DNA of 17,569 nucleotides from an uncultured Faecalibacterium sp. Lineage in GTDB: Bacteria > Bacillota > Clostridia > Oscillospirales > Ruminococcaceae. Below are positions 1-17,554 of this stretch, in pieces; the first letter of the stretch is position 1; each line of letters begins with the position of its first letter. The translations under genes and the position numbers were made by a program. Below the pieces are notes generated by a model. It saw only the letters and a list, made by a program, of their open reading frames with translations, searched no databases and was not told where the DNA came from. The DNA lies in the NCBI GenBank assembly GCA_945982465.1, contig CAMFSB010000005.1, positions 1-17,569 of the forward strand, read 5' to 3'.

Positions 1-409
1 CAACGCAGGCGGAGCCGACCGCGCTGGCCAAAACCTGGGCCCGGTCGGAGGCCACCGGCATGCGCTGAATGTCGGCCAGCCGGGCCTCGGCCGCGACCAG
101 CGGCACCGTACCGGCCGCAATCTCGCGCGAAAGGGCGTTGACGGCCGCCACCCGGCCCAGGTGGACCGAGCGGTTGGGCACGTTGCGCACCTCGCTGATC
201 TCGGCAGTACCGGCGCTGGCAAAAATGCCGTTGGTCAGCACATACACGTCAAATTCGCGCAGGTGGTAGCTGCGGGCCATGATGGCCATGGTCTGTTCCA
301 CCCGGAACACCTCGGCGCCGTTTTCCAGCAGCAGCTTGCCCGCCGCCATGGTCATATCCATAATACGGCGGCGCTGTTCGTAATCAGGGTTCTGTTCGAT
401 CTCAACCAC
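1..409 (-). CDS. Threonine/serine exporter family protein (ThrE/YjjP-like, DUF1212), N-terminal part only
   Basis: The first ~136 residues of a protein that runs off the left edge. After an initial GTG at 409 the translation contains AAGKLLLENGAEVFRVEQTM, the signature of the cytoplasmic N-terminal domain of the ThrE/YjjP family, followed by the usual stretch on small hydrophobic strands (YVLTNGIFAS). ThrE proteins export threonine and serine through the inner membrane; the transmembrane half lies outside the window. I chose GTG 407-409 because GAGG sits about 10 nt upstream of it, inside the end of legF; ATG 359-361 is an alternative start 16 codons later. The start overlaps the legF stop by 8 bp, so the gene is probably co-transcribed with the sugar operon although its known role has no obvious tie to legionaminic acid. 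Confidence 0.8.
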   Translation of the reverse strand, partial: MVEIEQNPDYEQRRRIMDMTMAAGKLLLENGAEVFRVEQTMAIMARSYHLREFDVYVLTNGIFASAGTAEISEVRNVPNRSVHLGRVAAVNALSREIAAGTVPLVAAEARLADIQRMPVASDRAQVLASAVGSACV

Positions 410-1163
410 GGATGTTGTTCCTCACAGCAGCAAATTCGGGGTAGTTGGCGTACAGGTGGCCCGCAATGACCTCCATCAGGCGGAAGTCCTCCTCAGAGTC
501 AATGTCCAGGATGCCGGTGTCCATCATGGTGGAAATGCCGATCTTGCCGTCCCACAGGATGCCGGTGTGGTTTTCGGCCAGAAAATCGCGGCGGAACACA
601 TAGATGGATGCGTTCAAATCGTAAATGGCCGGGGCCTGCTGGCGGGCCGTGTAAGGCGAGGCGATCACCTTTTCCACATGGTCGCCGCAGTCGCGCACCA
701 TATTGAAATAGGGGTTGCGGCGCGCCTCGGTCACACTGAACACCAAGTCCAGGTCCGGCCGCTGTGCCTTGGCGCGGTAGGCGTTTTCGATGTCGCGGGC
801 GGTGCGCAGCGGGCTGGTGATGTCCAGGTCCATTACATAGTCGTAGGCCGTACCGGTTTTTTGTTCCATACGGGCCAGCGTATCCTGAAACACCGCCATT
901 TTGGGCACCGTGTCGCCGCCCAGCGCCTCGCCGCGGGGCAGAAAAACCACCTCCGGGTACTGGGCGGCCACCAGCTCGGCCAGGTGCGGGCTGTCGGTGT
1001 TCAGAGCCACGTCCACCTGCACCTCCGGGTGGGCTTTGGCGAACAGCTGTGCCGCCGAAAGAGTGTAGTACACCAGCGGCTTTTCGCAAAAGGTTTTGAG
1101 GTTTTTGTTTTTGAAGCCCTTGCTCCCCGCACGGCCGCAAACAGTGATCAGCAATCGTTCCAT
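402..1163 (-). CDS. legF: CMP-N,N'-diacetyllegionaminic acid synthase (acylneuraminate cytidylyltransferase)
   Basis: A 253-residue cytidylyltransferase that would activate the finished nonulosonic acid with CTP to give CMP-Leg, in the cytoplasm. The N-terminus has the nucleotide-binding signature CGRAGSKGFKNKN (about residues 9-21), followed by VMDLDITSPLRTARDIE, the family's equivalent of the QPTSPLR region, and FSVTEARRNPYFNMV. Length matches NeuA/LegF single-domain enzymes. Three in-frame ATG codons lie near the start (1163, 1172, 1199); I prefer 1163 because homologues begin close to the MERLLITVCGR stretch and AGATGG lies in SD position, but 1172 is possible. It is the last nonulosonate gene of the operon. 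The sequence alone cannot separate CMP-Leg from CMP-Neu specificity; the legionaminate call rests on the LegB/LegC/PtmE neighbours. Confidence 0.87.
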   Translation of the reverse strand: MERLLITVCGRAGSKGFKNKNLKTFCEKPLVYYTLSAAQLFAKAHPEVQVDVALNTDSPHLAELVAAQYPEVVFLPRGEALGGDTVPKMAVFQDTLARMEQKTGTAYDYVMDLDITSPLRTARDIENAYRAKAQRPDLDLVFSVTEARRNPYFNMVRDCGDHVEKVIASPYTARQQAPAIYDLNASIYVFRRDFLAENHTGILWDGKIGISTMMDTGILDIDSEEDFRLMEVIAGHLYANYPEFAAVRNNIRG

Positions 1164-1229
1164 TGTTTCCATCTCATTTCTATCCGATCTTCTGCCCAAA
1201 GGGCAGTGGTTCCAGGGCAGCCCGCCGGT

Positions 1230-3268: not shown

Positions 3269-3619
3269 TCAGCCCAGCGCGCGCTCCCATTCCGCTTCGC
3301 GGAAGCCCACCAGCACAGCGTTGTCCAGCACCAGCAGCGGCCGCTTGACCAGCATGCCGTCGGACGCCAGCAGGGCCAGCTGCTGCTCCCGCGAAAGGGC
3401 GGGCAGCCTGGCCGCCAGCCCCAGTTCCTTGTATTTTAAGCCGCTGGTGTTGAAAAACCGTTTCAGCGGCAGGCCGGAGCGCTCGCTCCACTCCGCCAGT
3501 TCGGCGGCGGTGGGGTTGTGCTCCACAATGTGCCGGTCGGTATACGCCGCGCCGTGCGCATCCAGCCAGGCCTTTGCCTTTTTGCAGGTGGAGCATTTAG
3601 GGTATTCCACAAACAGCAT
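3269..3619 (-). CDS. ArsC/Spx-family thioredoxin-fold protein (arsenate reductase family)
   Basis: A 116-residue protein, the normal size for the ArsC/Spx/YffB family. The N-terminal strand leads into YPKCSTCKKAKAWL with a Cys9-X2-Cys12 pair, and the C-terminal half has LVKRPLLVLDN, the cis-proline 'RP' motif of ArsC-like proteins. Family members either reduce arsenate with glutathione or thioredoxin, or act as redox-sensing RNA-polymerase partners (Spx). The CXXC pair is Spx-like, but short ArsC homologues of unknown function also carry it, so I do not assign a reaction. It has no obvious role in sugar synthesis, yet it lies between legG and the two oxidoreductases. A weak extended -10 promoter upstream could give it separate expression. 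The SD is poor (AGGCGG about 9 nt before ATG 3619). Confidence 0.83.
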   Translation of the reverse strand: MLFVEYPKCSTCKKAKAWLDAHGAAYTDRHIVEHNPTAAELAEWSERSGLPLKRFFNTSGLKYKELGLAARLPALSREQQLALLASDGMLVKRPLLVLDNAVLVGFREAEWERALG

Positions 3620-3665: not shown

Positions 3666-3693
3666 ATTGTAGCACGTCAGTTGCCGTCGTAAA
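3666..3693 (-). promoter_or_regulatory. Possible extended -10 promoter for the ArsC/Spx-family gene
   Basis: On the minus strand TGCTACAAT gives an extended -10 (TGN plus TACAAT, 5 of 6 to TATAAT; hexamer at plus 3666-3671). A weak -35, TTTACG, lies 16 nt upstream at 3688-3693. The element overlaps the legG stop codon and lies ~47 bp before the ArsC-like start. The -35 match is only 4 of 6, so this is a candidate and no more. Confidence 0.3.
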
Positions 3694-4870
3694 AGCCCTT
3701 GGGGGCAGTCAGCTCCGGGCAGAACAAAGCTTTTTCCAGCACTGCCACGATCCGGCCGCTGGTGTCGCCGCCGTTGTATGGGCTGACCGTCCGCCTGGCC
3801 TGCGCTGCGAACTCCGGCGTCAGGGCAGTGCGCAGCGCCTGCGCAATGGCTTCGCGCTGTGCCGGGCAGCACAGCACGTTGGGGCACACAATGCGCCCGG
3901 CCTGCCGCGCGCCGATGTTTACGGCGGGCACGCCAAAGGTGGGCGTTTCCACCACGCCGCTGGACGAGTTGCCCGCCACCACGGCCGCGTACTGCATGGC
4001 CGACAGATACCGCCGCACGCCCAGGCTGGTGTAGGCGGCGGCATAACCGGCATGGCCGGCGGCCCAGGCGTCGATGCGGGCGTTGATGTCCGCGCCGCCC
4101 GCGTCGGCGTTGGCCTTGGTGACCACATAGCGCAGGCCGGTTTCGGCGTGCACATCCTCCATGGCGGCCAGCAGCGAGTCCATCTGCACAGCGGCCGGGG
4201 GCGCGCAGGCGGCGGTTTCGGGGTGGAAAGTGACCAGCCCGAATGGCCGCTCCAGATCAAAGTCGATGCTTCCGGCCAGCTCGGCCCGGGTCAGCTTGGG
4301 CATGGTGCGGATGTTTTCATCCCCCAAGCCGCCCACGTTGAACACCCGCCGCGGGTCCTCGCCCATGCGGATGACCCGCCGGGCGTATTCCTCGCAGCTG
4401 GGGAAATGCAGGCTGGCCATTTTGGTGATGCAGTGCCGGTAGTAATCGTCCGCCGCGCCCAGCGTTACATCGCCGCCGGAAATATGGGCAATGGGCACCC
4501 CCATCATGGCGGCTGCCTGCGCCGCGGCAAAGATCTCGTACCGGTCGCCCAGCACCAGCACGCCGTCGGGGCGCTCCGCTTCAAACCAGCGGGCAAACTC
4601 CCGGATGGTATACGCCACGGTGTCGGGCAGCGCCAGCGGGCCGTCGCCGAACCGCAAAATGTCGATGCGCGCCGCAATGGGCACGCCGTCGGCTTCGATC
4701 TCGCCCACGGTCTGGCCGTACTGGGCCGACAGATGTGCCCCGGTCACAATTACCAATGGTATAATTTTGTCGGATTTTAACAGTTTGAAGATCACCGGCC
4801 GCAGCAGGCCGTATTCAGCCCGGGTGCCCGTGATCACGGCAAGGCGCTTTTTTTCGCTCGACTGCTGCAT
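3677..4870 (-). CDS. legG: Hydrolysing nucleotide-sugar 2-epimerase of legionaminic acid synthesis (NeuC/LegG type)
   Basis: A 397-residue GT-B-fold epimerase that releases the nucleotide and inverts C2, giving 2,4-diacetamido-2,4,6-trideoxy-mannose in the legionaminate pathway (ManNAc in the sialic acid version). Motifs seen: ITGTRAEYG (13-21), VLGDRYEIF, HISGGDVTLGAADDYYRH, LVTFHPET, VAGNSSSGVVETPTFGVP and NIGARQAGR, all hallmarks of UDP-GlcNAc 2-epimerase/NeuC proteins. The reading frame is open upstream to 4996, but ATG 4870 is the credible start: GGGAGG lies 8 nt before it and homologues begin just before the GTRAEYG motif. The 94 bp gap to legI is the only sizeable gap within ptmE-legI-legG. 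An AT-rich run of rare-looking codons covers residues ~28-42. Whether the leaving nucleotide is GDP or UDP is inferred only from ptmE. Confidence 0.9.
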   Translation of the reverse strand: MQQSSEKKRLAVITGTRAEYGLLRPVIFKLLKSDKIIPLVIVTGAHLSAQYGQTVGEIEADGVPIAARIDILRFGDGPLALPDTVAYTIREFARWFEAERPDGVLVLGDRYEIFAAAQAAAMMGVPIAHISGGDVTLGAADDYYRHCITKMASLHFPSCEEYARRVIRMGEDPRRVFNVGGLGDENIRTMPKLTRAELAGSIDFDLERPFGLVTFHPETAACAPPAAVQMDSLLAAMEDVHAETGLRYVVTKANADAGGADINARIDAWAAGHAGYAAAYTSLGVRRYLSAMQYAAVVAGNSSSGVVETPTFGVPAVNIGARQAGRIVCPNVLCCPAQREAIAQALRTALTPEFAAQARRTVSPYNGGDTSGRIVAVLEKALFCPELTAPKGFYDGN

Positions 4871-4964: not shown

Positions 4965-5963
4965 TTACGCCAGAACGATCTGCTCGTCCTCGGCAAAATC
5001 GCGCACCGCCGCCGTGCCCAGCACCTCGTACCAGCACATGGGGCTGATGCCGTCGCCGGGGCGCTTGGTGGTCAGGTTTTCGGCGGTGAACACCTCGCCT
5101 TTCCGGATGGGGCGCGCCGCCACGATGCTCTTGCGGGCAATGGGCTTGTTTTTGGCCTCGCTGGCCGTCACATGCTTTTTGCCGTCGCCCATGGCCGCCT
5201 CGATGTGCCGCACCGCCGTGACCATGGCCGCCAGCTCCGCCGGCTCCAGGCTGGCCTTGTGGTCGGGGCCGTCCATGGTTTTGTCCAGCGTGAAGTGCTT
5301 TTCGATCACCGCCGCGCCGAACGCGGCCGCGGCCACGTCGCATTCCCAGCCGGTGGTGTGATCCGACAGGCCCACCGGCAGGCCGAACTGCTCCGAAAGC
5401 TCCAGCATGGCGCCCAGGTTCGCGTCCTCGTAGGGGGTGGGGTACTCGGTGTTGCAGTGCAGCAGCGTGGCCCCCCTGGCGCCGTTGGTCTCGAGGATAT
5501 CCAGGGCGTTTTCGATCTCATCCAGCGTACTCATGCCGGTGGAAAGGATCACATGCAGGCCCAGCTTACCCACCTCTTCCAGATAGGGCAGGTTGGTGAT
5601 CTCGCCGCTGGGCACCTTGATATAGGGCAGATCCAGCGTGCCCAAAAACCGCACGCTGGGGATATCGAACGGCGCCGACAGGTACTGGATGCCGATGGAA
5701 TCGCAGTATTCTTTCAGTTCCCGATGGGCCTCAAAGTCAAAGTGCAGCCGGCGCACCATGTCCAGCTGGCTTTCGGCGTCGCCGGTGGTCTCTTTTTGAT
5801 ATTCGGCCTTCTGCGCAAATTTGGAGATGACCAGCTCGGGCACGGCGGTCTGGTACTTGACCACGTCCGCCCCGCACTCCTTGGCAGTCAGAGCCATTTT
5901 TTTGGCCATTTCCAAACTGCCGTTGTGGTTGACGCCCGCTTCCGCGATGATGATGGTGCTCAT
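4965..5963 (-). CDS. legI: N,N'-diacetyllegionaminate synthase (NeuB/LegI family)
   Basis: A 332-residue PEP-condensing synthase joining the LegG product with phosphoenolpyruvate to form the nine-carbon acid. The N-terminal TIM barrel shows IIAEAGVNHNGSLEMAKKM, then VVKYQTAVPELVISK, YLSAPFD, IKVPSGEITNLPYL, STGMSTLDEIENA, LLHCNTEYPTPYEDANL, LSDHTTGWE and VIEKHFTLDKTMDGPDHKAS, all standard NeuB motifs including the conserved metal and substrate residues. The C-terminal ~60 residues are an antifreeze-like/SAF domain (IARKSIVAARPIRKGEVF). Length equals the family norm. ATG 5963 overlaps the ptmE stop as ATGA, with GGAGG inside the last codons of ptmE, so the two are translationally coupled. NeuB, LegI and PseI are close relatives; Leg is preferred because of the pathway neighbours. 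Confidence 0.92.
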   Translation of the reverse strand: MSTIIIAEAGVNHNGSLEMAKKMALTAKECGADVVKYQTAVPELVISKFAQKAEYQKETTGDAESQLDMVRRLHFDFEAHRELKEYCDSIGIQYLSAPFDIPSVRFLGTLDLPYIKVPSGEITNLPYLEEVGKLGLHVILSTGMSTLDEIENALDILETNGARGATLLHCNTEYPTPYEDANLGAMLELSEQFGLPVGLSDHTTGWECDVAAAAFGAAVIEKHFTLDKTMDGPDHKASLEPAELAAMVTAVRHIEAAMGDGKKHVTASEAKNKPIARKSIVAARPIRKGEVFTAENLTTKRPGDGISPMCWYEVLGTAAVRDFAEDEQIVLA

Positions 5964-7012
5964 AGTTTTTCCTCCATCCTTCTGCGCATCTTATCCAGTT
6001 CTTCCAGCTGGCCCATATCCATCCAGCTGGATTCGTTGATGGGGTACACCCCCACGTTTTCGCCCCTGCGGCGGTATTTTTCGATCACGTCCGGGAAGCC
6101 CTGCTTTTTGCCGATCTCCAATTCCTCCACCACGCGCGGCTCCACCACATAGACGCCGGTATTGGTCAGAAAGTTCAGCTGCGGCTTTTCGCGCATGGCC
6201 TGGATGGAGCCATTCTCCCCCATTTCCACCACGCCGTAGGGCACGGTGTAGTGCTTGTAGGCGCAGATCATGGTGATCACGTTGTTGTGCGCTTTATGGT
6301 ACTGGTAGATATCGCCGTAATCCACATCCAGCAGCGTGTCGCAGTTGGAAAAGAAAAACGTGGAATCCATCTGCCCGCGCAGCAGGCACAGCCCGCCGCC
6401 GGTGCCCCAGAACTCGGTCTCATCCACAAAATCCACGGTATAGTTTTTGTGTTCCAGGTCGGCAAAATAGCTTTTGATCATGCCCTTTTTATAGTTGACC
6501 ACCATGCGGAAGTCGCGGCAGCCGTAATCGCAGAAGCGGTCGATGATCAGTTCCACAATGGGCTTTTCGCCCACCGGGATCAGGGGCTTGGGCAGGATCT
6601 TGGTATACGGGTACAGCCGGGTGCCAAGGCCGCCCGCCATGATGACCACCGGGATATTGGCCTTTTTGCGGTTGTCGATGTCCAGCCCGGTGGCAAACAC
6701 CACATCCATGATGCAGCCCGCTTTATCCAGAATGGGCAGCGCGTCGATGCCGTATTGCTCCAGCACCTCGCGGGCACGGCCGCGCTCGGCCACCGGCAGG
6801 CTTTTGGGGTGGTAGTTGGCGGCATGGGCCACCGTATCGTCCAGCTTGCCGCCCCGCAGCAGAAATTTGCGCAGGTCGCCGTCGGTCAGCACCGCCTCCA
6901 GCCGGCCGTTCGGCGCAAGAAACAGAATGCGCTGGCCGGTTTCGTCCAGGCGCTTCATGGTCTCCAGGATCGTGGCAGTTTCGCTGATGAACAATTCTTC
7001 CAGTTTCAGCAT
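5960..7012 (-). CDS. ptmE: CBS-domain sugar-1-phosphate nucleotidyltransferase (PtmE-like guanylyltransferase)
   Basis: A 350-residue two-part enzyme. Residues ~1-115 are a pair of CBS motifs (ETMKRLDETGQRILFL...VLTDGDLRKFLL; then ALPILDKAGCIMDVVF). Residues ~120-350 are a nucleotidyltransferase with the pyrophosphorylase signature AGGLGTRLYPYTKILPKPL (126-144), FFSNCDTLLDVDY and a C-terminal WMDMGQLEELDKM. This CBS-plus-NTP-transferase layout is that of C. jejuni PtmE, which makes GDP-glucosamine for the GDP-linked legionaminate route, and its place directly before legI and legG repeats that locus. CBS pairs usually bind adenosyl ligands and may regulate the enzyme. ATG 7012 follows GAGG at ~11 nt and lies 6 bp after the previous stop. 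GDP specificity is taken from the family and not shown by the sequence. Confidence 0.87.
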   Translation of the reverse strand: MLKLEELFISETATILETMKRLDETGQRILFLAPNGRLEAVLTDGDLRKFLLRGGKLDDTVAHAANYHPKSLPVAERGRAREVLEQYGIDALPILDKAGCIMDVVFATGLDIDNRKKANIPVVIMAGGLGTRLYPYTKILPKPLIPVGEKPIVELIIDRFCDYGCRDFRMVVNYKKGMIKSYFADLEHKNYTVDFVDETEFWGTGGGLCLLRGQMDSTFFFSNCDTLLDVDYGDIYQYHKAHNNVITMICAYKHYTVPYGVVEMGENGSIQAMREKPQLNFLTNTGVYVVEPRVVEELEIGKKQGFPDVIEKYRRRGENVGVYPINESSWMDMGQLEELDKMRRRMEEKL

Positions 7013-7018
7013 CCGGGG

Positions 7019-7663
7019 TCACCTCGTTTTCTTGTTTCGGTTCGGGAGCAGTTCCCGGCAAAGGGAGAGGATGCAGGCGGCAAGGCCCGCGCCCGCCGCC
7101 AGCCAGAACAGCTGCCACGGCGAGGGCACCAGATAATCGTACCAGGGCAGCGGCTCGTTGAGCACGATGGCCTTTACCTGTACCGTAACATTGCTGCGGT
7201 CGCACAGGTCCAGCCGCAGGCCCTGCCCCGCAAAAAAGGGCACCGTGTAGCTGTATTCGCCCGCGGCGGTGCGGGTGGGCCAGCAGCGCAGCTGCTGGCT
7301 GTAGCCCCGGCCGGGCAGATGATAGTATAAATCCATCTCACAGCCATCCTGGCTGTATTCGGCCACCAGGCGCAGCGTGCGCACCGGTTGGCCGGGCGAA
7401 AGCAGCAGCTGGGAGTCGCCCTCGGTGGAGCGCAGGGTATCGCCCGCTTCGCCGGCAAATTCCAGTTGGTGCAGGGTATACAGCCCGGTATCTGCCAGCG
7501 TGATGGTCTGGGTGTGCAGCCGGCCGGCGGCATAGCCAGCCGCATCAAAGGCCCACAGGCCTGCGCCGCACACCAGCCGCAGCGCAAGGGCGGCCAGCAG
7601 GCACAAAACAGGCAGCGGCAGCGTGCGCAGCCGGCGCACGGCCCGGTTTCGTCGGTCGTTCAT
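7019..7663 (-). CDS. Small two-TM membrane protein with extracytoplasmic beta-type domain (module copy 2)
   Basis: A 214-residue protein I do not recognise as a named family. It has an N-terminal hydrophobic helix after a basic start (residues ~13-35), a ~130-residue domain rich in alternating polar/hydrophobic strands (TLRLVAEYSQDGCEMDLYYH), and a C-terminal helix (PSPWQLFWLAAGAGLAACIL) followed by a basic tail, predicting both ends inside and the middle outside. ATG 7663 overlaps the stop of the preceding large membrane protein by 4 bp (ATGA), with GGAGGAGGG upstream. Its C-terminal part matches the protein at 10962-11585: LRLDLC against LRLDPC, and QLFWL at the start of the last helix. The coupling suggests it is a partner subunit or outer domain for the large protein. 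Confidence 0.8.
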   Translation of the reverse strand: MNDRRNRAVRRLRTLPLPVLCLLAALALRLVCGAGLWAFDAAGYAAGRLHTQTITLADTGLYTLHQLEFAGEAGDTLRSTEGDSQLLLSPGQPVRTLRLVAEYSQDGCEMDLYYHLPGRGYSQQLRCWPTRTAAGEYSYTVPFFAGQGLRLDLCDRSNVTVQVKAIVLNEPLPWYDYLVPSPWQLFWLAAGAGLAACILSLCRELLPNRNKKTR

Positions 7664-9648
7664 GTGCTGCCCTCCTCCCACACGGCGGCCAGGGCAAAGC
7701 CCGTGCTGCCCACGCGGTACAAGGCTGCGGCCCCGCCCGAGGGCGCGGCCAGCCCATCGCTGAAAAGCGCCGCATAGCTGGCGGCAAAGATCTCGTCCGA
7801 CTGTGCCACCAGCAGCCACGCCGCGCCGCTGGCGCAGGTCTCGGCCAAAAATTCCTCAGCGGTCAGCGCACGGTACAGCCTGCCCGTGCCGTATTCTGCC
7901 AGGCCGTAGCTCACGCCGCCGTCGCCGTAAACCAGAATGCGGGGCAGCAGGCGGCAGCTGTATTCAAACCAGTGGTAGCCGTCGTCGCCCTGATAGATCA
8001 GATAGATGGTTTCGTCCGGCTGGGTCTGCCGCACCGCCCAGTCGGCAATGGCAATGGCCTGCCGCTGCTGGGCATACTGGGCCTGCGTGACCCCGAACAC
8101 CGTGTACTGCGGCTCCAGATTGACAAAGCACTGGCTGCAGAACACTGCCGCCAGCGCCAGCGCGCCCGCATGCCCTGCCGCCCGGCCCAAGGGCCTGCGC
8201 ACCCCGGCGGCCGAAGCGGCGAACACCGCCAGCGCCAGCAAAAACCAGCCCAGATAATAGCTTTGATAGTAGCGCTCGTAGCTGACCGGGTACGCCGGGC
8301 TGGAATCCTTTAAGATAAACGCATAGCTGAGCAGCAGCATCAGCCAGTAGCCGCCAAAGCATACCGTGCTGGCCAGCGCGGCCAGTGCGGCACGCAGCTT
8401 GCCGCGCAGCGTGGGCGCCAGCGCCACCGCACCCGCAAACAGCAGCAGGATCACAGCCGTTACCGCCGCCCCGCTGCCCAGCAGGGAAATTTTATGATGG
8501 AAGAACCAATCCCACAGCGTATGGGCATAGGCAAACGCCGTTTCGCGGCGGGCCTCGTAATACGCGGCGGCGGGCAGGCCCAGCAGCAGCCGGATGCCCT
8601 GCATCAGCACCGCGCCCAGCGGCTGGCTGGTGGCGCCCATGCCGCCTTCGGCTGCATTTTGGGCCACCAGCGCGGCCACATAGCGGTTCCAGGCCAGATA
8701 CTGCGCCGCCGGGGCCGCCACGAGAGCCAGCGCCCCGCCGCAGCGGCCGGCAAAGCTTCGGGCGGTAAGGCGCCCCGCTTCGTCTTTCAGGCCAAACAGC
8801 AGCCAGTCCGCCGCCGCAAGGCCCGCCGCCGCAAGGCCCAGCACAAAGGTATTGTCCTTGATGTTCCCGGCAAGGCAGGCCACCGGCAGCATCAGCCACC
8901 ACAGCCGCGGGCAGCGGGCACGCACTGCCCACCAGAACGCCGCCGCCCCGCCGAACAGCACCCCGGCCACGGTGTCGCCCATGGCCTCCAGATACGGCGT
9001 AGCCAGCACGGAGGTGTGGCTGCGCAGCGCCAGCACAAAGGGCGTCAGCAGCGCCGCCAGCGCCGCCGGGATCTGCAGCCGCCAGCCGCCGGCCGCCGCG
9101 CACTCGGCCACTGCCGCAGCACCGGCTAGCAATAGCAGGTCCACCGCCCAGATCAGCTTCCAGTCCGCATACGCGCCGCAACGCTGCACAAAGTAACCCA
9201 GCAGCGGCACGGCCGGCATCTGGGTGATCTGCCAGGGCGTGCCAATCTCACACTCGGTATACAGCCGGCCGTTCAGGCAGGTGAGCCGGGCCGCCGTGCC
9301 CCAAAACGAATATTCATCAAACTGCGTCGTACAGGGCTGCACCCGGGCCAGCAGGACCAGCAGCGCCAGCGCGCCGCACCAGAACACTGCACCCGCCGCA
9401 CCGCACCCGGCCGGGGCGGCCGCCGTCCGGCGCCGGTACAGCGTCCATGCGCCCAGGCCAAGCCCCAGCGCGTACAGCAGCGCCGCGGCCAGCGGCAGAA
9501 CGCCCAGAATGCCCGCCCCGAACAGCGCCAGAACCGCCGCCGCCAATACGGCCAGCGGCGCAGCGCCGCCGGGCAGCCCCAGCCATTGCAGAAACAGGCA
9601 GCCGCCCGCCAGTGCGGCCAGCGGCAAAAGCATAGCCAAAAAGTCCAT
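7660..9648 (-). CDS. Large multi-pass membrane protein, putative GT-C type glycosyltransferase (module copy 2)
   Basis: A 662-residue protein with ten or more predicted hydrophobic segments. After the first ~4 segments comes TQFDEYSFWGTAARL, with Asp111-Glu112 in what should be the first large outer loop, as in GT-C enzymes such as ArnT and PMT that use lipid-phosphate sugars. The last ~150 residues form a soluble outer domain (YQGDDGYHWFEYSCRLLPRIL; SYAALFSDGLAA). It is paralogous to 11582-13666 over its length: LLLGLPAAAYYEARR/MLLGLPAGEYYEARR, YYLGWFL, and the SYAALFSDGLAA block identical in both. ATG 9648 has only a weak SD (GAGAAG). Sugar and acceptor cannot be told from the sequence; a surface-polymer or lipid-linked glycan step is inferred from the operon. 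It could instead be a non-enzymatic polymer protein. Confidence 0.8.
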   Translation of the reverse strand: MDFLAMLLPLAALAGGCLFLQWLGLPGGAAPLAVLAAAVLALFGAGILGVLPLAAALLYALGLGLGAWTLYRRRTAAAPAGCGAAGAVFWCGALALLVLLARVQPCTTQFDEYSFWGTAARLTCLNGRLYTECEIGTPWQITQMPAVPLLGYFVQRCGAYADWKLIWAVDLLLLAGAAAVAECAAAGGWRLQIPAALAALLTPFVLALRSHTSVLATPYLEAMGDTVAGVLFGGAAAFWWAVRARCPRLWWLMLPVACLAGNIKDNTFVLGLAAAGLAAADWLLFGLKDEAGRLTARSFAGRCGGALALVAAPAAQYLAWNRYVAALVAQNAAEGGMGATSQPLGAVLMQGIRLLLGLPAAAYYEARRETAFAYAHTLWDWFFHHKISLLGSGAAVTAVILLLFAGAVALAPTLRGKLRAALAALASTVCFGGYWLMLLLSYAFILKDSSPAYPVSYERYYQSYYLGWFLLALAVFAASAAGVRRPLGRAAGHAGALALAAVFCSQCFVNLEPQYTVFGVTQAQYAQQRQAIAIADWAVRQTQPDETIYLIYQGDDGYHWFEYSCRLLPRILVYGDGGVSYGLAEYGTGRLYRALTAEEFLAETCASGAAWLLVAQSDEIFAASYAALFSDGLAAPSGGAAALYRVGSTGFALAAVWEEGST

Positions 9649-9714
9649 TTGCTTCTCACATTTCCCGCCGGGGCCGGGCAGTTCCGTTCCGGCGGCCGGC
9701 CGCGGGGGCGGCAG

Positions 9715-10872
9715 TTACAGCGCCAGCACCGCGTCGATGACGCGGGCGCAGTCTTGTTCGGTCAGGTTGGTGGAGCAGGGGATGTTGACGATGCGGCGGC
9801 GGTACTCCCGCGCCGTTTCCAGCGCAAAGGCCTGGTTGCGGCCGTAGTCGCACTGCTCGTTGATCAGCGACCACACCGGGCGGGTCTGGATCTTCTGCTC
9901 GTGCAGCGCCGCGATCACGGCGTCGCGCTCCAGGCGGTCGGGCAGCAGCAGGCTGTAGAACCAATGGTTCGAGCGCGTGCCCTCGCGGAACGGCAGCATC
10001 CGGAAGCCCTTGACCCCGTCCAGCGCGGCGCGGTACTGCTCGTACCGGGCGGTCTTATGGGCAATAAAGCCTTCCAGCAGTTCCATCTGGGCCAGGCCCA
10101 GGCAGGCGTCGATGTTGGTCATGCGGTAGTTGTAGCCCGGCTCGTCGTGGGTGAACTGCAGCACGTCGGTTTTGGCCTGGGTGGAAAGGTGCTTGGCGTG
10201 CACCGCCCAGTCGTCATGGTTGGACACCAGCGTGCCGCCGGTGCCGGTGGTGATGATCTTGTTGCCGTTGTAGCTGTACGCGCCCACGTCGCCCATGGTG
10301 CCTGCAAAGCGGCCGGCCAGCGGGCCTTCGGTATACTTGGTGCCCAGCGCCTCGGCCGCGTCCTCGATCAGGACCAGGCGGTACTTTTGGGCAATGTCCA
10401 GAAAGCGGGGCATGTCCGCCATGTTGCCGAACACATGCACCACCACCAGTGCCGACACATGGGCACCGGTGGCGTTGTCGTACAGGCCGTCGGCCCTGAG
10501 CGTGCAGTGGTTGGCGCAAAAGTCCTCCACCGCGTCCGGGTCCATGCAGGCGCTTTCGTCGCAGCCGATGAACACCGGCTCGGCCCCCACATAGCGGGTG
10601 GTGGGGTTGACCGACGCGATAAAGGTCAGCGACGGCACAATCACCTCGTCGCCGCGCTGCACGCCCGCCACCAGCGCCGACAGATGCAGCGCCGCCGAGC
10701 CGCTGGCACAGGCCACCGCCCGGGGCATGTGCAGGTACTGCGCCACGCAGGCTTCCATTTCGTCGACTTTGGCGCCGCTGGTGGACACCCACGCGCCGTC
10801 CAGCGCGTCGTCGACGTATTTTTTCTCATTGCCGCAGAAGTTGGGCACCGAAAGGGGGATAAAATTGCTCAT
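9715..10872 (-). CDS. legC: PLP-dependent nucleotide-sugar 4-aminotransferase (LegC family)
   Basis: A 385-residue DegT/DnrJ/EryC1-type aminotransferase adding the amino group at C4 of the LegB 4-keto product. It begins IPLSVPNFCGNEKKYVDDAL, typical of the LegC branch (many relatives start FIPLS), then GAWVSTSGAKVDEME, ACASGSAALHLSAL, PSLTFIASVNPTTRYVGAEPV, LIEDAAEALGTKY and GAYSYNGNKIITTGTGG with the PLP Schiff-base lysine K205. ATG 10872 is preferred to a GTG at 10887 because GTGAGG precedes the ATG at SD distance. The gene is set between the two copies of the large+small membrane module, so the module duplication flanks it. Amino donor is probably glutamate, as known for the family. Confidence 0.9.
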   Translation of the reverse strand: MSNFIPLSVPNFCGNEKKYVDDALDGAWVSTSGAKVDEMEACVAQYLHMPRAVACASGSAALHLSALVAGVQRGDEVIVPSLTFIASVNPTTRYVGAEPVFIGCDESACMDPDAVEDFCANHCTLRADGLYDNATGAHVSALVVVHVFGNMADMPRFLDIAQKYRLVLIEDAAEALGTKYTEGPLAGRFAGTMGDVGAYSYNGNKIITTGTGGTLVSNHDDWAVHAKHLSTQAKTDVLQFTHDEPGYNYRMTNIDACLGLAQMELLEGFIAHKTARYEQYRAALDGVKGFRMLPFREGTRSNHWFYSLLLPDRLERDAVIAALHEQKIQTRPVWSLINEQCDYGRNQAFALETAREYRRRIVNIPCSTNLTEQDCARVIDAVLAL

Positions 10873-10961
10873 ACTCAAACGCCTCACAATTCAAAATCAG
10901 AATATTCCGTGCTTGTTGATCGGATCGGGTGCCGGGCCGCACAGCGGCACGGCGCCAGGGC

Positions 10962-11585
10962 TCAGGGTTTTGTGCGCTGCTGCCAGGCGCGCACCGCGCA
11001 CAGCGCCACATCCAGTGCCGAGGACGCCAGCCCCGGCAGCAGCACCAGCCAGAACAGCTGCCGCCACGAGGGCGCAAAGTACCGCCAAGCCGCCCGGGGC
11101 GCATTGAATTCCACCAAAAAGCCGGTGATCACGCAGACATCGCTGCACGGGTCCAGCCGCAGGGCGTATACATCGGCCCGGGGCAGCGTAAAGGTCCAGG
11201 TTCCGTCGCCGTTATCCCGCGGCAGCACCCGCTGGTCCGCGCCAAATGCCTCGCCCGGCTGCTCGATGTAATACAGACACATCTCGCCGGGGAGGGTGCT
11301 GTACGCGGCCGTCAGCGTAACGGTGCGCACCACCTCGCCGCCGCTGTTGACCCAGATCATCTGGGGGTCGGAGGTCTGCGCGACCAGCACACCGTCGGCC
11401 GTCCACTCCGCGCTGACCAGTTCAAACGCCTGCGGCTCCAGGATCCGGCGCTCCATGCGGCCGCCGGCGCGGGCCGCCCAGTCGCCTGCCAGCAGACTGC
11501 CGCACAGCGCCAGCCATACCAGCGCCGCGGCACCGTAGCACAGCGCCGGCAGCGCCGCCCGCCGTGGAAAATGTATCTGCTTCAT
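10962..11585 (-). CDS. Small two-TM membrane protein with extracytoplasmic beta-type domain (module copy 1)
   Basis: A 207-residue protein of unrecognised family: N-terminal helix (PALCYGAAALVWLALCGSLL), outer domain with strand-like segments (VVRTVTLTAAYSTLPGEMCL; TWTFTLPRADVYALRLDPC), C-terminal helix (QLFWLVLLPGLASSALDVAL) and a short basic end. It resembles the protein at 7019-7663 mostly in the C-terminal third and in overall layout; the outer domains have diverged strongly. ATG 11585 overlaps the stop of the preceding large protein as ATGA, the same arrangement as in the other copy. I infer a dedicated partner of the large protein; no enzymatic motif is visible. Confidence 0.8.
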   Translation of the reverse strand: MKQIHFPRRAALPALCYGAAALVWLALCGSLLAGDWAARAGGRMERRILEPQAFELVSAEWTADGVLVAQTSDPQMIWVNSGGEVVRTVTLTAAYSTLPGEMCLYYIEQPGEAFGADQRVLPRDNGDGTWTFTLPRADVYALRLDPCSDVCVITGFLVEFNAPRAAWRYFAPSWRQLFWLVLLPGLASSALDVALCAVRAWQQRTKP

Positions 11586-13666
11586 GCCGCCCCCTCCGTC
11601 ATGGCCACGGGCACAAACAGGCCCTGCTGTTCATCCACTCGGTACAGCGCCGGGCTGCCGTTTGCAGCGGCGGCCAGCCCGTCACTGAACAGGGCGGCAT
11701 AGCTTTGCTCAAACACATCATCGCTGTACTGCACGAACACATACGCGCAGCCGCACTGCCGCACGGCGCTCCAGAACTGCTGCGGGCTGTAGGCGTGATA
11801 ATAAAGATCGCCGTTGTACAGTTCTGCCGTGCCAAAGGTTCCGCCGCCCGCGCCGTATTCGATGCCGCCCTCCTGCCGCAGCAGGCCGCTGTAATCCAGC
11901 ACCATAGGCAGAAATTCATAGCTGAAATTGAACCAGCGCAGGCCGTTGTCGCCCTGGCTGACCAGGAACACCCGCTGCCCGGCCAGATCGCCCTGCCGCT
12001 GGGGGTCGGCCTCGATGGCCGCTTTTACCTGCCGGGTCTGGGCCGCATAGATCTCCACGCCGGTGAACTCGGCGTCGCCGTAATCCAGCACGCAGGTATA
12101 CGGCGAAATATAGCGATCAAAGCACACAAGGCACAGGCAGGCCAGCGCCAGCACCGCCGCTTTGCCCGGCAGCTGCCAGCGGCTTTGCCGCACGGCCTGG
12201 CACAGCAGCGCCAGCGCGATCAAAAACCAGCCCAGATAATAGGTGTACAGGTAGCGGTTGTAATCGATGAGCTGAGCGCCCTGGCTCTCGGTAAAAATAA
12301 AGGCGTAGCTGAGCACCAGCATAAAGTTGTACGCCAGAAAGCACCCCGCGCACAGCGCCCACACGGTCACGATATGCAAGCGGCGGCGCAGCCCGGGGGC
12401 CAGCACAGCCGCCGCGGCAAACAGGCAGGCAATCACAGCCACCACGATCAGGCCGCTGCCCAGCAGGGTGCTCTTTGCGTGCAAAAATGAGTCCAGCATA
12501 TCAGCGGCCGCCTGGAAAAACCGCCCGCGGCGCGCCTCGTAGTATTCGCCCGCCGGCAGCCCCAGCAGCATTTTTATGCCGTTGACCGCCACGGTGATCA
12601 GGTCCTCGCTGGTATCGCCCATACCGCCCTGCTCGGCGTTTTGGGCGATCAGGCCGGCGGTATACCGGCCCCAGGCCGCATATACAGCTATGGGCGCGGC
12701 AAAGGCCAGCGCCGCGCGGCCGCAGCGCCCCGCCAGCCCCCGGCGCCAGGGCTGGCCGTCCGGGCCAAACAGCACCAGGTCCACCGCCACGATGCCCGCG
12801 GCCGCCAGGCTGAGCACAAAGGTGTTGGGTTTGATGTTGGCGCACAGCGCCAGCACCGGCAAAAGCGCCCAGAACGGCCCGCCCTCGCGCCGCAGGCACA
12901 GCCAGAACACCACCGCGCCGCCGAACAGAACGCCGGCCGGGATATCGCCGTAGCTGGTAAAATACACATGGCACACATAGATCGTGCGCACATACACCGT
13001 GAGCAGAAAGGGCGTCAGCCAGCAGATGACCGCCGCGGGCACGGCAAGGGCGTAATCCTTCCACTTGACGCCGCCCAACACGGCCGCGAAGCAGGCAAAC
13101 AGCAGCACGTCGTAGGCCACATAGGTCTTCCACGCGGCAAAGCTGCCGAAAAACTGCATAAAATAGCTCAGCAGCATCAGCCCACAGTTCTGGGTGGCCT
13201 GCCAGGGCCAACCGATGCTGCCCTCCGTGTACAGCACGTTCTGGGTGCTGGTCATCTTGGCGGCCGTGCCCCACAGCGAAAACTCGTCGTAATCGTAAAA
13301 CAGCGGCTGGCGCACCGCAAAATACACCGCAGCGCCGGCCGTCATCAGCCAGAACGCCGCCGCCCCGGGCGTAAACAGCAGCCGTGCCGCCGCCGCACAC
13401 CGCGCGCCCACCGGCTGGCCGCCTGCCTGGGGCCGCAGCGCATCGGCCAGCGCCCAGGCGCCCAGCGCAAAGCACAGCGCGTACACCGCCCAGCCAGCGG
13501 GCCGCAGCGCCCCAGCCATGCCGCCTGCCAGCAGCGCCAGCGAAGCGGCCGACAGCGCGCACAACGGCGCCAGCCCCGCGGGCAGCCGGGCCTTGAGCGT
13601 CAGCCAGGCGCAGGCGGCAAACAGCGCCGCCAGCGCGATCACAACATCAAAAAACGCAAACTCCAT
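11582..13666 (-). CDS. Large multi-pass membrane protein, putative GT-C type glycosyltransferase (module copy 1)
   Basis: A 694-residue integral membrane protein with many hydrophobic helices. LFYDYDEFSLWGTAAKM puts Asp127-Glu128 in the first outer loop, the position of the catalytic acidic motif in GT-C glycosyltransferases. Later come NIKPNTFVLSLAAAG, EQGGMGDTSEDL, LLGLPAGEYYEARR and YYLGWFLIALALL in the membrane part, and a C-terminal outer domain with SQGDNGLRWFNFSYEFLPMVL-like and SYAALFSDGLAAAANGSPAL segments, all mirrored in the 7660-9648 protein. ATG 13666 follows CGGAG at ~10 nt, 48 bp after the DUF2142 gene. Stop overlaps the next start (ATGA). Function is inferred from fold-type features and operon context, and the substrate is unknown. 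Confidence 0.8.
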   Translation of the reverse strand: MEFAFFDVVIALAALFAACAWLTLKARLPAGLAPLCALSAASLALLAGGMAGALRPAGWAVYALCFALGAWALADALRPQAGGQPVGARCAAAARLLFTPGAAAFWLMTAGAAVYFAVRQPLFYDYDEFSLWGTAAKMTSTQNVLYTEGSIGWPWQATQNCGLMLLSYFMQFFGSFAAWKTYVAYDVLLFACFAAVLGGVKWKDYALAVPAAVICWLTPFLLTVYVRTIYVCHVYFTSYGDIPAGVLFGGAVVFWLCLRREGGPFWALLPVLALCANIKPNTFVLSLAAAGIVAVDLVLFGPDGQPWRRGLAGRCGRAALAFAAPIAVYAAWGRYTAGLIAQNAEQGGMGDTSEDLITVAVNGIKMLLGLPAGEYYEARRGRFFQAAADMLDSFLHAKSTLLGSGLIVVAVIACLFAAAAVLAPGLRRRLHIVTVWALCAGCFLAYNFMLVLSYAFIFTESQGAQLIDYNRYLYTYYLGWFLIALALLCQAVRQSRWQLPGKAAVLALACLCLVCFDRYISPYTCVLDYGDAEFTGVEIYAAQTRQVKAAIEADPQRQGDLAGQRVFLVSQGDNGLRWFNFSYEFLPMVLDYSGLLRQEGGIEYGAGGGTFGTAELYNGDLYYHAYSPQQFWSAVRQCGCAYVFVQYSDDVFEQSYAALFSDGLAAAANGSPALYRVDEQQGLFVPVAMTEGAA

Positions 13667-13714: not shown

Positions 13715-15433
13715 TCAGATGGTATACACCGGGCCGATGAAATAATGCTGGAACAGCAGTACCGCCCCCGCCAGCCCGCACAAGCCAAAGCAGCCCAGCG
13801 CCACCGAAAGCGGCTTGCGGCTGCTTTGCCGCGGCTCCAGCACATGGCTGAGCAGCGCGGCCAGCAGCACCGCCAGCATCAAAAACACCGGCAACAGGTA
13901 GCGAGCCTGCAGCCCGATGATGCGCACCATGCCCACCGGGGTGTAGGTGATATACATGGCGGTGAGCACCCCGGCCGCGTACACCACGGCCAGGCCGCCC
14001 AGCCCGGCGGCGGGCAGCGCCCGCAGGCTGGATTTTTCGTGCACCGAAAGCCCGGCCCCCAGCAGCAGCATGCAGGGCGACAGCAGGTTGATCATCTCAA
14101 TGGGCAGGTCCATCGCGCCGAACACGCCCAGCTGCCCCAGGAAAAACTGGTTTTCGTACAGCGTGCCCAGCATGACTGCGATATACCGCAGGGGGTTTGA
14201 AAGAATGAACTTGAGCTGCGGCAGCTGGTCCACGCCGGGCAGCATGCGGCCGATGGTGCCGTAATTGAAGGCAAAGGTGTTGCCGTGCCAGCTGATCATC
14301 TGGCTGAGCGCCAGCGCGGGCAGCACACACACCAGGGCGAACTGCCACTTTTTCAGCCGGGCTTTCCACGCCGTGCGGGGCAGCACCAGCGGCAGCGCCA
14401 GCCACAGCAGGTTGATCCAGGGCTTGATGCCGTTCATCAACCAGAACACCGCCGCATACGCCGCCAGGCTGCGGCCGGTCAGCTCGTCACGGCAGTAATA
14501 GCTGGCGGCAAAGTAATAGCACCCCAGCAGAACGGCGTCGTAGTTCAGCGAACCGGCAAGATACAGGCTCAGCGGCAGCAGCATCACGGCCAGAAACACC
14601 GGCTTGTACCGTTTGCAGTTTTTCAGCGCCAGCCAGCACAGCGCCGCGTACACGCACAGGTTGGCCAGCCGCCCGGCGTACAGGCAGCCCAGCGCCTGCA
14701 GCCCCAGCAGCCGCGCCGCCGCCATGAACAGCGCCGCGGGCAGATATTGCAGGATGGAACGGATCAGCGGCTCGGTGACCGGGGCCGCCGCCTCGCCGGA
14801 AAAATACCGGGCAAAGCCGTCGGCGATGCTGTATACGCGGCCGTCCTCGCCGTACTGCTTGAGGGCGTAACCGTCACTGCTGTACACTTCGTATCCCCGG
14901 GACGGTGTATACACGCCGTTGGATGGGGTTACGGGTTCTTCGGCCGGAGAAGCATCCTCCTGCGCGGAATCATCCGTGCGCACGCCGGCCGAGGTATGCC
15001 CATTGACCCATGCGCCGGGAAAGCACGCCAGCAGGCGGCTGACGCTTTCGGGGTAGCCGCGGTCCGCGTCAAAGTCAAAGCGGCCCAGGCTCACCGCGTA
15101 GGCGCGCAGGTAATGCCCCTGCTCGTCGGGCGCCTGCAAGGGCGGGTCGGCAAAAACAAACAGCGCCCCGCACAGCAGGATGCACAGCGCGGCCCGGGCG
15201 TCAAAATCCCGGACAAAGCGGCACGCCAGCGTGGCCAGCGCATACAGCGCCGCTGCAAACGCGCACATCCCGCCGGTAACGGCCAGCGGCAGCACGCCCC
15301 GGGCGTCCAGATAATAGAACACGCGCCAGTAGTAGGCCGCGCCCGCGCCCAGCGCGCACACGGCGGCAAGCCCTGCCAGCCAGCGCGCCCAGCCGGGCGC
15401 CTTTTTCAGTTTTGCAGCAGCGCGTTGGAACAT
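13715..15433 (-). CDS. DUF2142 family multi-pass membrane protein
   Basis: A 572-residue protein with the DUF2142 pattern: three N-terminal helices, then ADPPLQAPDEQGHYLRAYAV (Pro102-Asp103-Glu104 in the first outer loop), a ~120-residue outer segment, QYLPAALFMAAARLLGL, RLANLCVYAAL, LPLSLYLAGSLNYDAVL and further helices to a C-terminal hydrophobic end. DUF2142 proteins are membrane proteins common in surface-polysaccharide clusters, with a GT-C like appearance, but their reaction is not established. The outer loop includes an acidic Asp/Glu/Ser-rich stretch (residues ~150-170). ATG 15433 has GAGG about 6 nt upstream. It is the first gene after legB, separated by 94 bp containing a hairpin. 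With the two other DE-motif proteins it makes three related-looking membrane proteins in one operon. Confidence 0.85.
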   Translation of the reverse strand: MFQRAAAKLKKAPGWARWLAGLAAVCALGAGAAYYWRVFYYLDARGVLPLAVTGGMCAFAAALYALATLACRFVRDFDARAALCILLCGALFVFADPPLQAPDEQGHYLRAYAVSLGRFDFDADRGYPESVSRLLACFPGAWVNGHTSAGVRTDDSAQEDASPAEEPVTPSNGVYTPSRGYEVYSSDGYALKQYGEDGRVYSIADGFARYFSGEAAAPVTEPLIRSILQYLPAALFMAAARLLGLQALGCLYAGRLANLCVYAALCWLALKNCKRYKPVFLAVMLLPLSLYLAGSLNYDAVLLGCYYFAASYYCRDELTGRSLAAYAAVFWLMNGIKPWINLLWLALPLVLPRTAWKARLKKWQFALVCVLPALALSQMISWHGNTFAFNYGTIGRMLPGVDQLPQLKFILSNPLRYIAVMLGTLYENQFFLGQLGVFGAMDLPIEMINLLSPCMLLLGAGLSVHEKSSLRALPAAGLGGLAVVYAAGVLTAMYITYTPVGMVRIIGLQARYLLPVFLMLAVLLAALLSHVLEPRQSSRKPLSVALGCFGLCGLAGAVLLFQHYFIGPVYTI

Positions 15434-15527: not shown

Positions 15528-16511
15528 TTACAGGATATACTGCCCCGGCTTGTAGCTGGCCAGATTGGCGCGCAGGAATTCAATGGTCTCAGCCAGGCCC
15601 TGCTCAAAGGTATACTGCGGGGCCCAGCCCGTCAGCTGGCGCAGACGGGTGGAATCGCCCAGCAGGCGGTTCACCTCGCTCTTTTCGGGACGCAGGCGCT
15701 CCTCCTCGCACACCACGCGGGCGTTGGGGTTGATCTGGGCGATCAGCTCGTTGGCCAGGTCGCCGATGGAATGCTCCACGCCGGTGGCGATGTTCAGCTC
15801 CTGCCCGATGGCGGCGTCGCAGTCGGCAATGGCCATAAAGCCGCGGGCGGTGTCCTTGACATAGTTGAAATCGCGGGTGGGGCTGAGCTTGCCCAGCTTG
15901 ATCTCGGTCTGGCCGGCCAGCAGTTGGGTGATGATGGTGGGGATGACCGCCCGGCCGCTCTGACGCGGGCCGTAGGTGTTGAACGGCCGCACGATGGACA
16001 CCGGCAGATCAAAGCTGCGGTAAAAGCTCTCGGCCAGGCGGTCGGCGCCGATCTTGGTGGCCGAATAGGGGCTCTGCCCCTGGAACGGATGCTTTTCGTC
16101 AATGGGCACATACTGGGCTGTGCCGTACACCTCGCTGGTGGAGGTGACCATGATGCGCTCGGTGCCCACCTCGCGGGCGGCGTTCAGCACATTCAGCGTG
16201 CCCTTGATGTTGGTGTCCACATAGCTGTCGGGGCTGTGGTACGAAAACGGGATGGCGATGAGGGCGGCCAGATGATACACCCGCTGCACCCCGCGCATGG
16301 CCGTGCGCACGCCGTTGGGGTCGCGCACATCGCCCATAAAGATCTCGATCTCGTTTTTGATCTCGGGCGGCAGGGTGTCGATCCAGCCGGCCGAGCCGAA
16401 CGAATTGTACAGGCAGAAGGCCTTGACCTTTTCGCCGGATTTAACCAGTTCCTCGGTGAGATGGCTGCCGATGAAGCCGTCGGCGCCGGTGACCATAACT
16501 GTATGAGACAT
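15528..16511 (-). CDS. legB: NAD-dependent nucleotide-sugar 4,6-dehydratase (LegB family)
   Basis: A 327-residue extended short-chain dehydrogenase/reductase that would make the 4-keto-6-deoxy sugar that starts the legionaminate branch. Visible motifs: VTGADGFIGSHL (7-18) for NAD, HLAALIAIPFSYHSPDSYVD, the catalytic set TSTSEVYG (122-129, with acidic Glu126 following the Ser/Thr) and Tyr148-X3-Lys152, then RPFNTYGPRQSGRAVIPTII and PTRDFNYVKDTARG, typical of LegB and related 4,6-dehydratases. ATG 16511 has GGAGG 9 nt upstream; the frame is open to 16532, but that extension lacks support. It is the first gene of the operon, downstream of a strong SigA promoter and a ~123-nt leader. GDP or UDP specificity cannot be read from the sequence. 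Confidence 0.92.
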   Translation of the reverse strand: MSHTVMVTGADGFIGSHLTEELVKSGEKVKAFCLYNSFGSAGWIDTLPPEIKNEIEIFMGDVRDPNGVRTAMRGVQRVYHLAALIAIPFSYHSPDSYVDTNIKGTLNVLNAAREVGTERIMVTSTSEVYGTAQYVPIDEKHPFQGQSPYSATKIGADRLAESFYRSFDLPVSIVRPFNTYGPRQSGRAVIPTIITQLLAGQTEIKLGKLSPTRDFNYVKDTARGFMAIADCDAAIGQELNIATGVEHSIGDLANELIAQINPNARVVCEEERLRPEKSEVNRLLGDSTRLRQLTGWAPQYTFEQGLAETIEFLRANLASYKPGQYIL

Positions 16512-16634
16512 TCTGTTGTTCCTCCAAAACAAGCATCGGCGCAGCCGGCCCGGGGCCGCGGCAGCCGCCGCGCACAGGCGGCCGCGCCCGCAGCGCGTTC
16601 GCTGCGCAGGGCAAAGGGCCGCTTCGCGGTTATC
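16512..16634 (-). other. GC-rich, structured 5' leader of the leg operon
   Basis: The ~123 bases between the predicted start of transcription and legB contain no gene. They hold a perfect 7-bp inverted repeat with a 4-nt loop (16589-16606, arms CGCAGCG/CGCTGCG), a shorter CCGC-GAA-GCGG hairpin at the very 5' end (16619-16629) and a run of GGC/GCC repeats. I do not recognise a known riboswitch. Confidence 0.45.
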
Positions 16635-16843: not shown

Positions 16844-17554
16844 ATGAGTTTTCAAAATTTTTCGTATTTTCTGTTTCTGGCCGTAACGGCGGGGTGCTAC
16901 CTCAAGGCCCCCAAAAAGGCCCAGACGCCGCTGCTGCTGGCGGCCAGCGTGCTGTTTTACGGCATCAACCTGGCCGCCACCTATACAGCCGCCCCCGGCG
17001 CGGCCGCGGCGTTTCGCTGCGCGGTGAGCGCGGTGCTGGTGGCGGGCGTGGTGTGGTATGTGCACCGCACGGCCAACGCCCTGGCCGGGCAGGAGGGCGC
17101 GGCCCGCGGCCTGCTGCTGCGCCGGGCGGTGGTGACCCTGCTGGCGGTGCTGGCGGTGTTCAAATACTACAACCTCTCTCCTCTGCCCACGCTGCTGGAC
17201 GGCACCGTGCTGGCAAAGCTGCCGTTCCCGCTGGGCATCAGCTTTTTTACCTTTACGGCGGTGGGCTATCTGGTGGACGTGGCCCGGGGCGACTGCCCGG
17301 CCGAGCCGCGCATCAGCCACACGGCGGTGCTGCTGCTGTTTTTCGGCACGGTGGCCAGCGGCCCCATCTGCCGCGGCGGGCAGCTTTTGCCCCAGCTGGA
17401 TCAGGAGCACCGCTTTGACGAGGCCCGCACCGTAAACGCTTTGCGGCTGTTTGCGCTGGGGTTGTTCAAGCGGGTGGCCGTGGCCGACGTGCTGGGGCTG
17501 GTGGTGAACGTGGTGTTTGCCGACGCGAAGATGTCAAGGTCCTTTATGCGGTAG
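16844..17554 (+). pseudogene. AlgI-like MBOAT O-acyltransferase, 3' truncated
   Basis: 236 residues matching the N-terminal half of AlgI/DltB-type membrane-bound O-acyltransferases, which are usually ~450-500 residues. Seen: MSFQNFSYFLFLAVTAGCYL, LLLAASVLFYGIN, FKYYNLSPLPTLL, PLGISFFTFTAVGYLVDVARG, FGTVASGPICRGGQLLPQL and LRLFALGLFKRVAVADVLGLV, all family landmarks. ATG 16844 is chosen because the start MSFQNFSYF fits the family; the SD is weak. After VNVVFAD homology should run on into the membrane segment carrying the catalytic His, but it reads AKMSRSFMR and stops. The conserved His half is missing, so the product should be inactive. MBOAT proteins of this branch O-acetylate surface polysaccharides, a role that suits the adjacent operon. 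Confidence 0.82.

Follow-up and report, generated by a model that had tools for sequence, protein, structure and literature searches.

A 17,569-nucleotide stretch of contig CAMFSB010000005.1 from an uncultured Faecalibacterium sp. (GenBank assembly GCA_945982465.1), referred to here as the window, carries a two-gene membrane module twice, once on either side of legC, within a cluster of legionaminic-acid (leg) genes. Each module is composed of a large protein predicted to be a GT-C glycosyltransferase (Large) and a small protein with a predicted outer domain of the carbohydrate-binding module (CBM) type (Small), and each is likely, at a probability of about 0.63, to represent one two-subunit enzyme that would add a sugar to a legionaminic-acid-linked glycan outside the membrane. 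The positions of both pairs and of legC, all on the minus strand, agree with the initial annotation, as do the presence of one pair on each side of legC and the coupling of each large gene to its small partner, both Large stops lying inside an ATGA.

LargeA: 11582..13666, minus strand, 694 amino acids (aa), predicted GT-C glycosyltransferase whose core has D127 and E128 in its first outer loop
ATGA overlap of the LargeA stop and the SmallA start: 11582..11585, minus strand
SmallA: 10962..11585, minus strand, 207 aa, modeled as a transmembrane (TM) helix (11-40), an outer β-sandwich (47-160) and a second TM helix (174-205)
legC, a LegC-family aminotransferase gene between both pairs: 9715..10887, minus strand, TIGR04181 at 437.3 bits (cut-off 420)
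LargeB: 7660..9648, minus strand, 662 aa, paralogue of LargeA
ATGA overlap of the LargeB stop and the SmallB start: 7660..7663, minus strand
SmallB: 7019..7663, minus strand, 214 aa, paralogue of SmallA

Predicted structures of Large and Small

LargeA and LargeB are identical at 275 of 645 aligned residues (43%; 46% in another comparison), and the blocks SYAALFSDGLAA, YYEARR and YYLGWFL, previously pointed out as common to the two, are letter-perfect in both. The structure model of Large was checked for the GT-C fold, and its predicted multi-helix membrane core has this fold, in keeping with the GT-C assignment made from the sequence. ArnT ranks first in the structure comparison, and oligosaccharyltransferase (OST), AglB, PglB and Pmt structures are also found among the GT-C rows. 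The residues D127 and E128 are invariant in all 28 aligned Large rows and are placed on the outer side by the charge pattern; their description as a motif of the first outer loop holds for the GT-C core but not for the whole chain, where four modeled TM helices precede them. The pair would correspond to the catalytic Asp of ArnT.

Large could instead be an OST- or ligase-like GT-C enzyme whose substrate is an entire lipid-linked legionaminic-acid glycan, transferred onto a protein or wall acceptor presented by Small. The OST, AglB, PglB and Pmt rows are compatible with such a role, as is a PF01943-type flippase gene that adjoins the clusters of several relatives, but the first-ranking ArnT is a single-sugar enzyme, the OST motif WWDxG is present in 0 of 28 Large rows, and several distinct Large copies per cluster suit serial single additions better, so that we regard this role as quite improbable.

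None of LargeA, LargeB, SmallA and SmallB scored above the cut-off of any Pfam or NCBIfam model, and the suggestion of an undescribed system holds to the extent that Large and Small fit no named family in these collections. A sequence search of the PDB gave no significant match, with two rows for Large (E 0.5 and 0.94) and none for Small.

The outer domain of Small is predicted to be a jelly-roll-like β-sandwich of ~115 residues, belonging to a CBM/galactose-binding-like superfamily, and R143, D145 and D73 are invariant across 21 Small rows. SmallA and SmallB are 38% identical in the N-terminal TM part (14/37) and 31% in the C-terminal part (12/39). The outer domains, described at first as different, are indeed the least conserved part, but they can still be aligned (26%, 31/117). 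The motifs LRLD and QLFWL are common to both proteins as noted earlier, though LRLD is located inside the outer β-sandwich of the model rather than in the C-terminal region.

A more limited role, in which Small only helps its partner to fold or to stay stable in the membrane and its CBM-like fold has no influence on the substrate chosen, would accord with the nearly constant encoding of Large and Small together. It would also accord with PIG-M/PIG-X, where excerpts of PMC9306709 describe the level of one subunit as dependent on the other and the small subunit as having no clear role. We consider this role fairly unlikely, given that the predicted fold of Small is that of a sugar-binding module and that its profile gives weak hits to long proteins from outside the family, three of those listed appearing, by eye only, to be secreted and carbohydrate-related.

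Recent gene conversion among the Smalls of one genome was not seen in 19 loci with at least two Smalls, where the best local alignments reached 22–34% identity. Many metagenome Smalls, mostly on short contigs (P0133-P0168 and P0172-P0175), have a near-identical C-terminal half and varied N-terminal parts, and are probably assembly chimeras, with recombination as the alternative. A 595-aa frame (locus L101, genome G045, 8801-10588, minus strand) carries two tandem small-like β-sandwich domains before an ABC-2 type permease domain (PF01061), and the small-like module may also serve glycan exporters.

Pairing and co-occurrence with leg genes

The distribution of the pair was followed in two surveys with partly shared contigs. 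The first searched 197 genomes from the family of the window three times, apparently on one draw (same number and same handles); the second covered 75 named loci, taken from the 80 best among 102 confirmed stretches. Genes were called by codon score, with profile search used for the majority of the genes in L043 and for several in L063. Because the surveyed genomes are related and non-independent, Fisher values for co-occurrence overstate certainty. The named loci represent Faecalibacterium, Gemmiger, Fournierella, Subdoligranulum, Ruthenibacterium, Anaerofilum and Pygmaiobacter, together with loci named only as Oscillospiraceae, Ruminococcaceae or Clostridia.

In the first survey, Large was found in 36 of 197 genomes, a Small match in 31 and a legB match (E ≤ 1e-60) in 41. 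The 31 genomes with a Small match comprise 29 with a stand-alone protein, one with a fusion (G014) and G045 with its ABC permease, and all 29 genomes with a stand-alone Small also have Large. The association with leg genes that had been anticipated is borne out by a legB match in every one of the 36 Large genomes, 32 of them above the curated cut-off and four (G014, G047, G079 and G133) below it. Among the 161 genomes that lack Large, legB is present in five (G107, G110, G183, G185 and G189), all above the cut-off, and of these five only G183 shows a weak Large-like match.

The second survey yielded 135 Larges: 123 are followed by a Small, four are preceded by a fusion (L182, L188, L195 and L197), four lie at a sequence end and four stand alone (L191, a fragment at a contig start; L185, apparently contig C10 of G039, with the fusion elsewhere; L170; and L198). 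Each of the 123 Smalls lies behind a Large. The Large stop is located inside an ATGA in 79 of the 123 pairs, as compared with 15 of 239 complete stops of legB, legC, ptmE, legI, legG and DUF2142, nine of the 15 belonging to legG. The pair behaves as a strict unit from the side of Small, which was not seen alone in either survey, while 7 of the 36 Large genomes lack a stand-alone Small; the possibility raised at the outset, that either gene might often be found alone, is answered differently for the two partners.

Five of these seven genomes have a fused small-like domain. An N-terminal domain of this kind is joined to DUF2142, the family of the membrane protein encoded directly upstream of LargeA in the window, in five genomes: in four it is detected by the profile (G014, E 1.9e-6; G017, 0.0012; G043, 6e-6; G039, 4e-8), and in G133 the same 200-residue extension falls below the profile threshold and was recognized by its length and by an alignment with the G014 fusion over residues 5-665. 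Similar fusions were seen at L188 and L195. In G095 and G123 the DUF2142 match reaches the contig edge. G123 also has three Large genes on separate contigs (C61, C182 and C218) and no Small match.

These fusions could mean that Small is a general CBM-like subunit of an extracytoplasmic glycosylation complex that mainly serves DUF2142, its link to Large reflecting operon order and joint duplication. A Large::small fusion, by comparison, was not found in the dedicated search, once its only match was set aside (P0175, a kinase-type protein with a Small piece on a 3.4 kb metagenome contig, an apparent assembly chimera). However, there is one Small per Large and not per DUF2142 (the named loci hold one to three Larges each), the Smalls are ATGA-coupled to Large, and they stay with their own Large lineage, all of which makes service mainly to DUF2142 unlikely.

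Two further arrangements were observed. Clusters of the order legB-DUF2142-pair-pair occur at L040, L041, L131 and L136-L139, the sequence read there containing none of the other tracked leg genes; the remaining leg pathway may be located elsewhere. At L044, L046, L047, L142, L143, L146, L148 and L158, a pair is immediately followed by a gene of the YfhO family (PF09586), which may encode another multi-pass enzyme.

Inheritance of the pairs

Trees were built for 61 Larges and for 56 Smalls or small-like domains. An identical 21-row set, designated type I, was recovered in the Large and small trees (support 95/85 and 98/95), as was an identical four-row set containing the second pair of the window (100/100 in each). 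Both pairs of the window belong to the type II Large lineage, type I being absent from the window, and in the small tree type II does not form a single supported clade. Where a locus has Larges of both types (20 loci by our own count), type I always comes first. Across 53 pairs the pairwise distances of the partners correlate strongly (r = 0.90, Spearman 0.71), while partners reshuffled within genomes averaged r = 0.29 over 20,000 trials and never exceeded 0.72. All 30 swaps of a single partner lowered r. Judged from these sequence comparisons, Large and Small are inherited as a unit.

Pairs flank legC on both sides in 7 of the 75 named loci and in the window, and Large-small-Large tandems with no tracked gene in between are found in 43 of the 75. 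A fresh local duplication around legC was rejected because the two Larges of the window fall in different sub-branches of the type II clade. The proposed co-duplication is therefore upheld in that the whole pair has been multiplied but not as a recent or local event, the pairs being old paralogues of an old multigene module.

Neighboring genes are co-inherited anyway, so that co-inheritance does not show subunit contact and linkage alone could explain it. The Foldseek list for Large has a non-GT-C protein at the top, which slightly lowers the confidence in a two-subunit enzyme.

The surrounding operon

The window is organized as a minus-strand operon with the order legB, DUF2142, LargeA-SmallA, legC, LargeB-SmallB, a nucleotidyltransferase with a CBS-like part and a nonulosonate synthase, continuing with a UDP-sugar 2-epimerase, a small protein, two oxidoreductases and a cytidylyltransferase. 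The features outside the pairs are as follows.

legB, NAD-dependent 4,6-dehydratase: 15528..16532, minus strand, TIGR04180 at 502.8 bits (cut-off 475)
DUF2142 membrane protein: 13715..15433, minus strand, PF09913 at 115.7 bits (cut-off 30.1)
Nucleotidyltransferase with a CBS-like N-terminal part: 5960..7012, minus strand, PF00483 above cut-off, PF00571 at 22.3 bits, below its cut-off of 24; ptmE-like
Nonulosonate synthase (legI position): 4965..5963, minus strand, above the cut-off of the NeuB model TIGR03569
NeuC/LegG-type UDP-sugar 2-epimerase: 3677..4870, minus strand, TIGR03568 and PF02350
116-aa protein with a CSTCKKAK stretch, within the sugar operon: 3269-3619, minus strand; presumably it resembles ArsC/Spx
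Cytidylyltransferase (legF position): 402..1172, minus strand, PF02348, with the PseF model below cut-off
MBOAT-type gene in the opposite direction: 16844-17554, plus strand, by cluster assignment

Because the synthase and the epimerase exceed the NeuB and NeuC equivalog cut-offs, the exact nonulosonate product is not fixed by the models. Next to the clusters of relatives lie divergent genes of several kinds (MBOAT; SGNH-like, with scores below cut-offs; the surface-carbohydrate family TIGR04396; PF01943 flippase; WbuX amidotransferase), which suggest an acylated, amidated surface glycan.

Distribution beyond the family

The Large profile matched 12 of 295 genomes of the order, ten of them outside the family. 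Neighbors were listed for six of the Large loci outside the family, and in the eight such loci that were read neither a Small nor a leg gene was present in the stretch, that of L100 stopping short of the expected place of Small. MBOAT- and SGNH-like genes were present at L103. Among 391 genomes of the class, weak Small matches occurred in six besides that of the window, five in frames of at least 467 residues and one (G793) in a 70-residue frame; no stand-alone Small was recognized outside the family in these genomes, the frame of G793 being left unread. Within this sample, the paired form belongs to the window's family and to its legionaminic-acid clusters.

Proposed function and relation to known enzymes

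In the proposed two-subunit enzyme, Large would work on the outer face of the membrane, where it would draw its sugar from a polyprenyl-phosphate carrier with the help of the conserved DE pair and the basic residues K279 and R471. Small would pack beside it through its two TM helices, its β-sandwich holding the growing acceptor glycan. Different pairs would form different linkages, and the number of modules (one to three per cluster) would follow the number of residues added in this way. The tie to leg genes indicates the glycan involved and not the sugar transferred. Legionaminic acid is activated as a cytidine monophosphate (CMP) sugar, in agreement with the cytidylyltransferase gene of the operon, so that the GT-C modules more likely add neighboring sugars than legionaminic acid itself. 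Elsewhere in the genome there are three GtrA-type matches (two above cut-off) and 16 GT2-type matches (15 above), and these genes could supply lipid-linked donors.

ArnT, a single-chain enzyme, is the lipid A aminoarabinose transferase (5EZM); its identity to Large is 8–10%, and the Large model has extra N-terminal helices before the aligned core. A parallel in architecture is glycosylphosphatidylinositol (GPI) mannosyltransferase I (PIG-M/PIG-X; Gpi14/Pbn1), described in excerpts of PMC9306709 and PMC12653191 as a GT-C enzyme with a TM-anchored, β-rich subunit and a species-specific association. The former describes such a heterodimer as unusual among glycosyltransferases and its small subunit as lacking a clear function. 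The likeness lies in a separate TM-anchored partner with a β-rich outer domain, seen here by gene order and predicted fold only. PIG-M/PIG-X is, however, a eukaryotic enzyme of the endoplasmic reticulum whose partner has one C-terminal TM helix, whereas Small is modeled with two and the Large-Small pair has been multiplied in connection with a nonulosonate pathway. The combination of a GT-C core with a CBM-like outer module is shared with the mycobacterial arabinosyltransferase EmbC, in which a CBM binds acceptor analogues (PMC3044687, in part), and with GT136 ORF12, described with a CBM (PMC11127046, in part). Both of these carry the module within the enzyme chain itself, unlike the separate, ATGA-coupled protein with its own TM helices found here. 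DUF2142 (PF09913), named also in streptococcal cell-wall polysaccharide loci (PMC9746298, in part), is a multi-pass protein of the same operon and carries a small-like N-terminal domain in one lineage, but LargeA and LargeB match no Pfam family at E ≤ 1 and hence not PF09913. The Large-Small system is placed between PIG-M/PIG-X and EmbC/ORF12, as a CBM-like module encoded by a separate gene and multiplied as a unit with its enzyme. No description of the pair, or of leg clusters in this family, was found among the titles and abstract openings of the open-access papers listed.

More tentatively, at somewhat less than even odds, we propose a bacterial family of heterodimeric GT-C enzymes whose acceptor is held and selected by a lectin subunit, encoded separately and anchored in the membrane. 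Duplication of the pair, giving one to three modules per cluster, would then add new linkages to the legionaminic-acid surface glycan of the Faecalibacterium/Gemmiger group. If true, bacteria would have their own version of a two-subunit architecture known from eukaryotes. The several paralogous pairs per genome, for example in Fournierella massiliensis DSM 100451 and Gemmiger gallinarum DSM 109015, would permit partner swaps that probe selection by the small subunit. Gut commensals of the Faecalibacterium/Gemmiger type are common, and the gene clusters point to a surface glycan with a sialic-acid-like sugar in them, which bears on their contact with the host.
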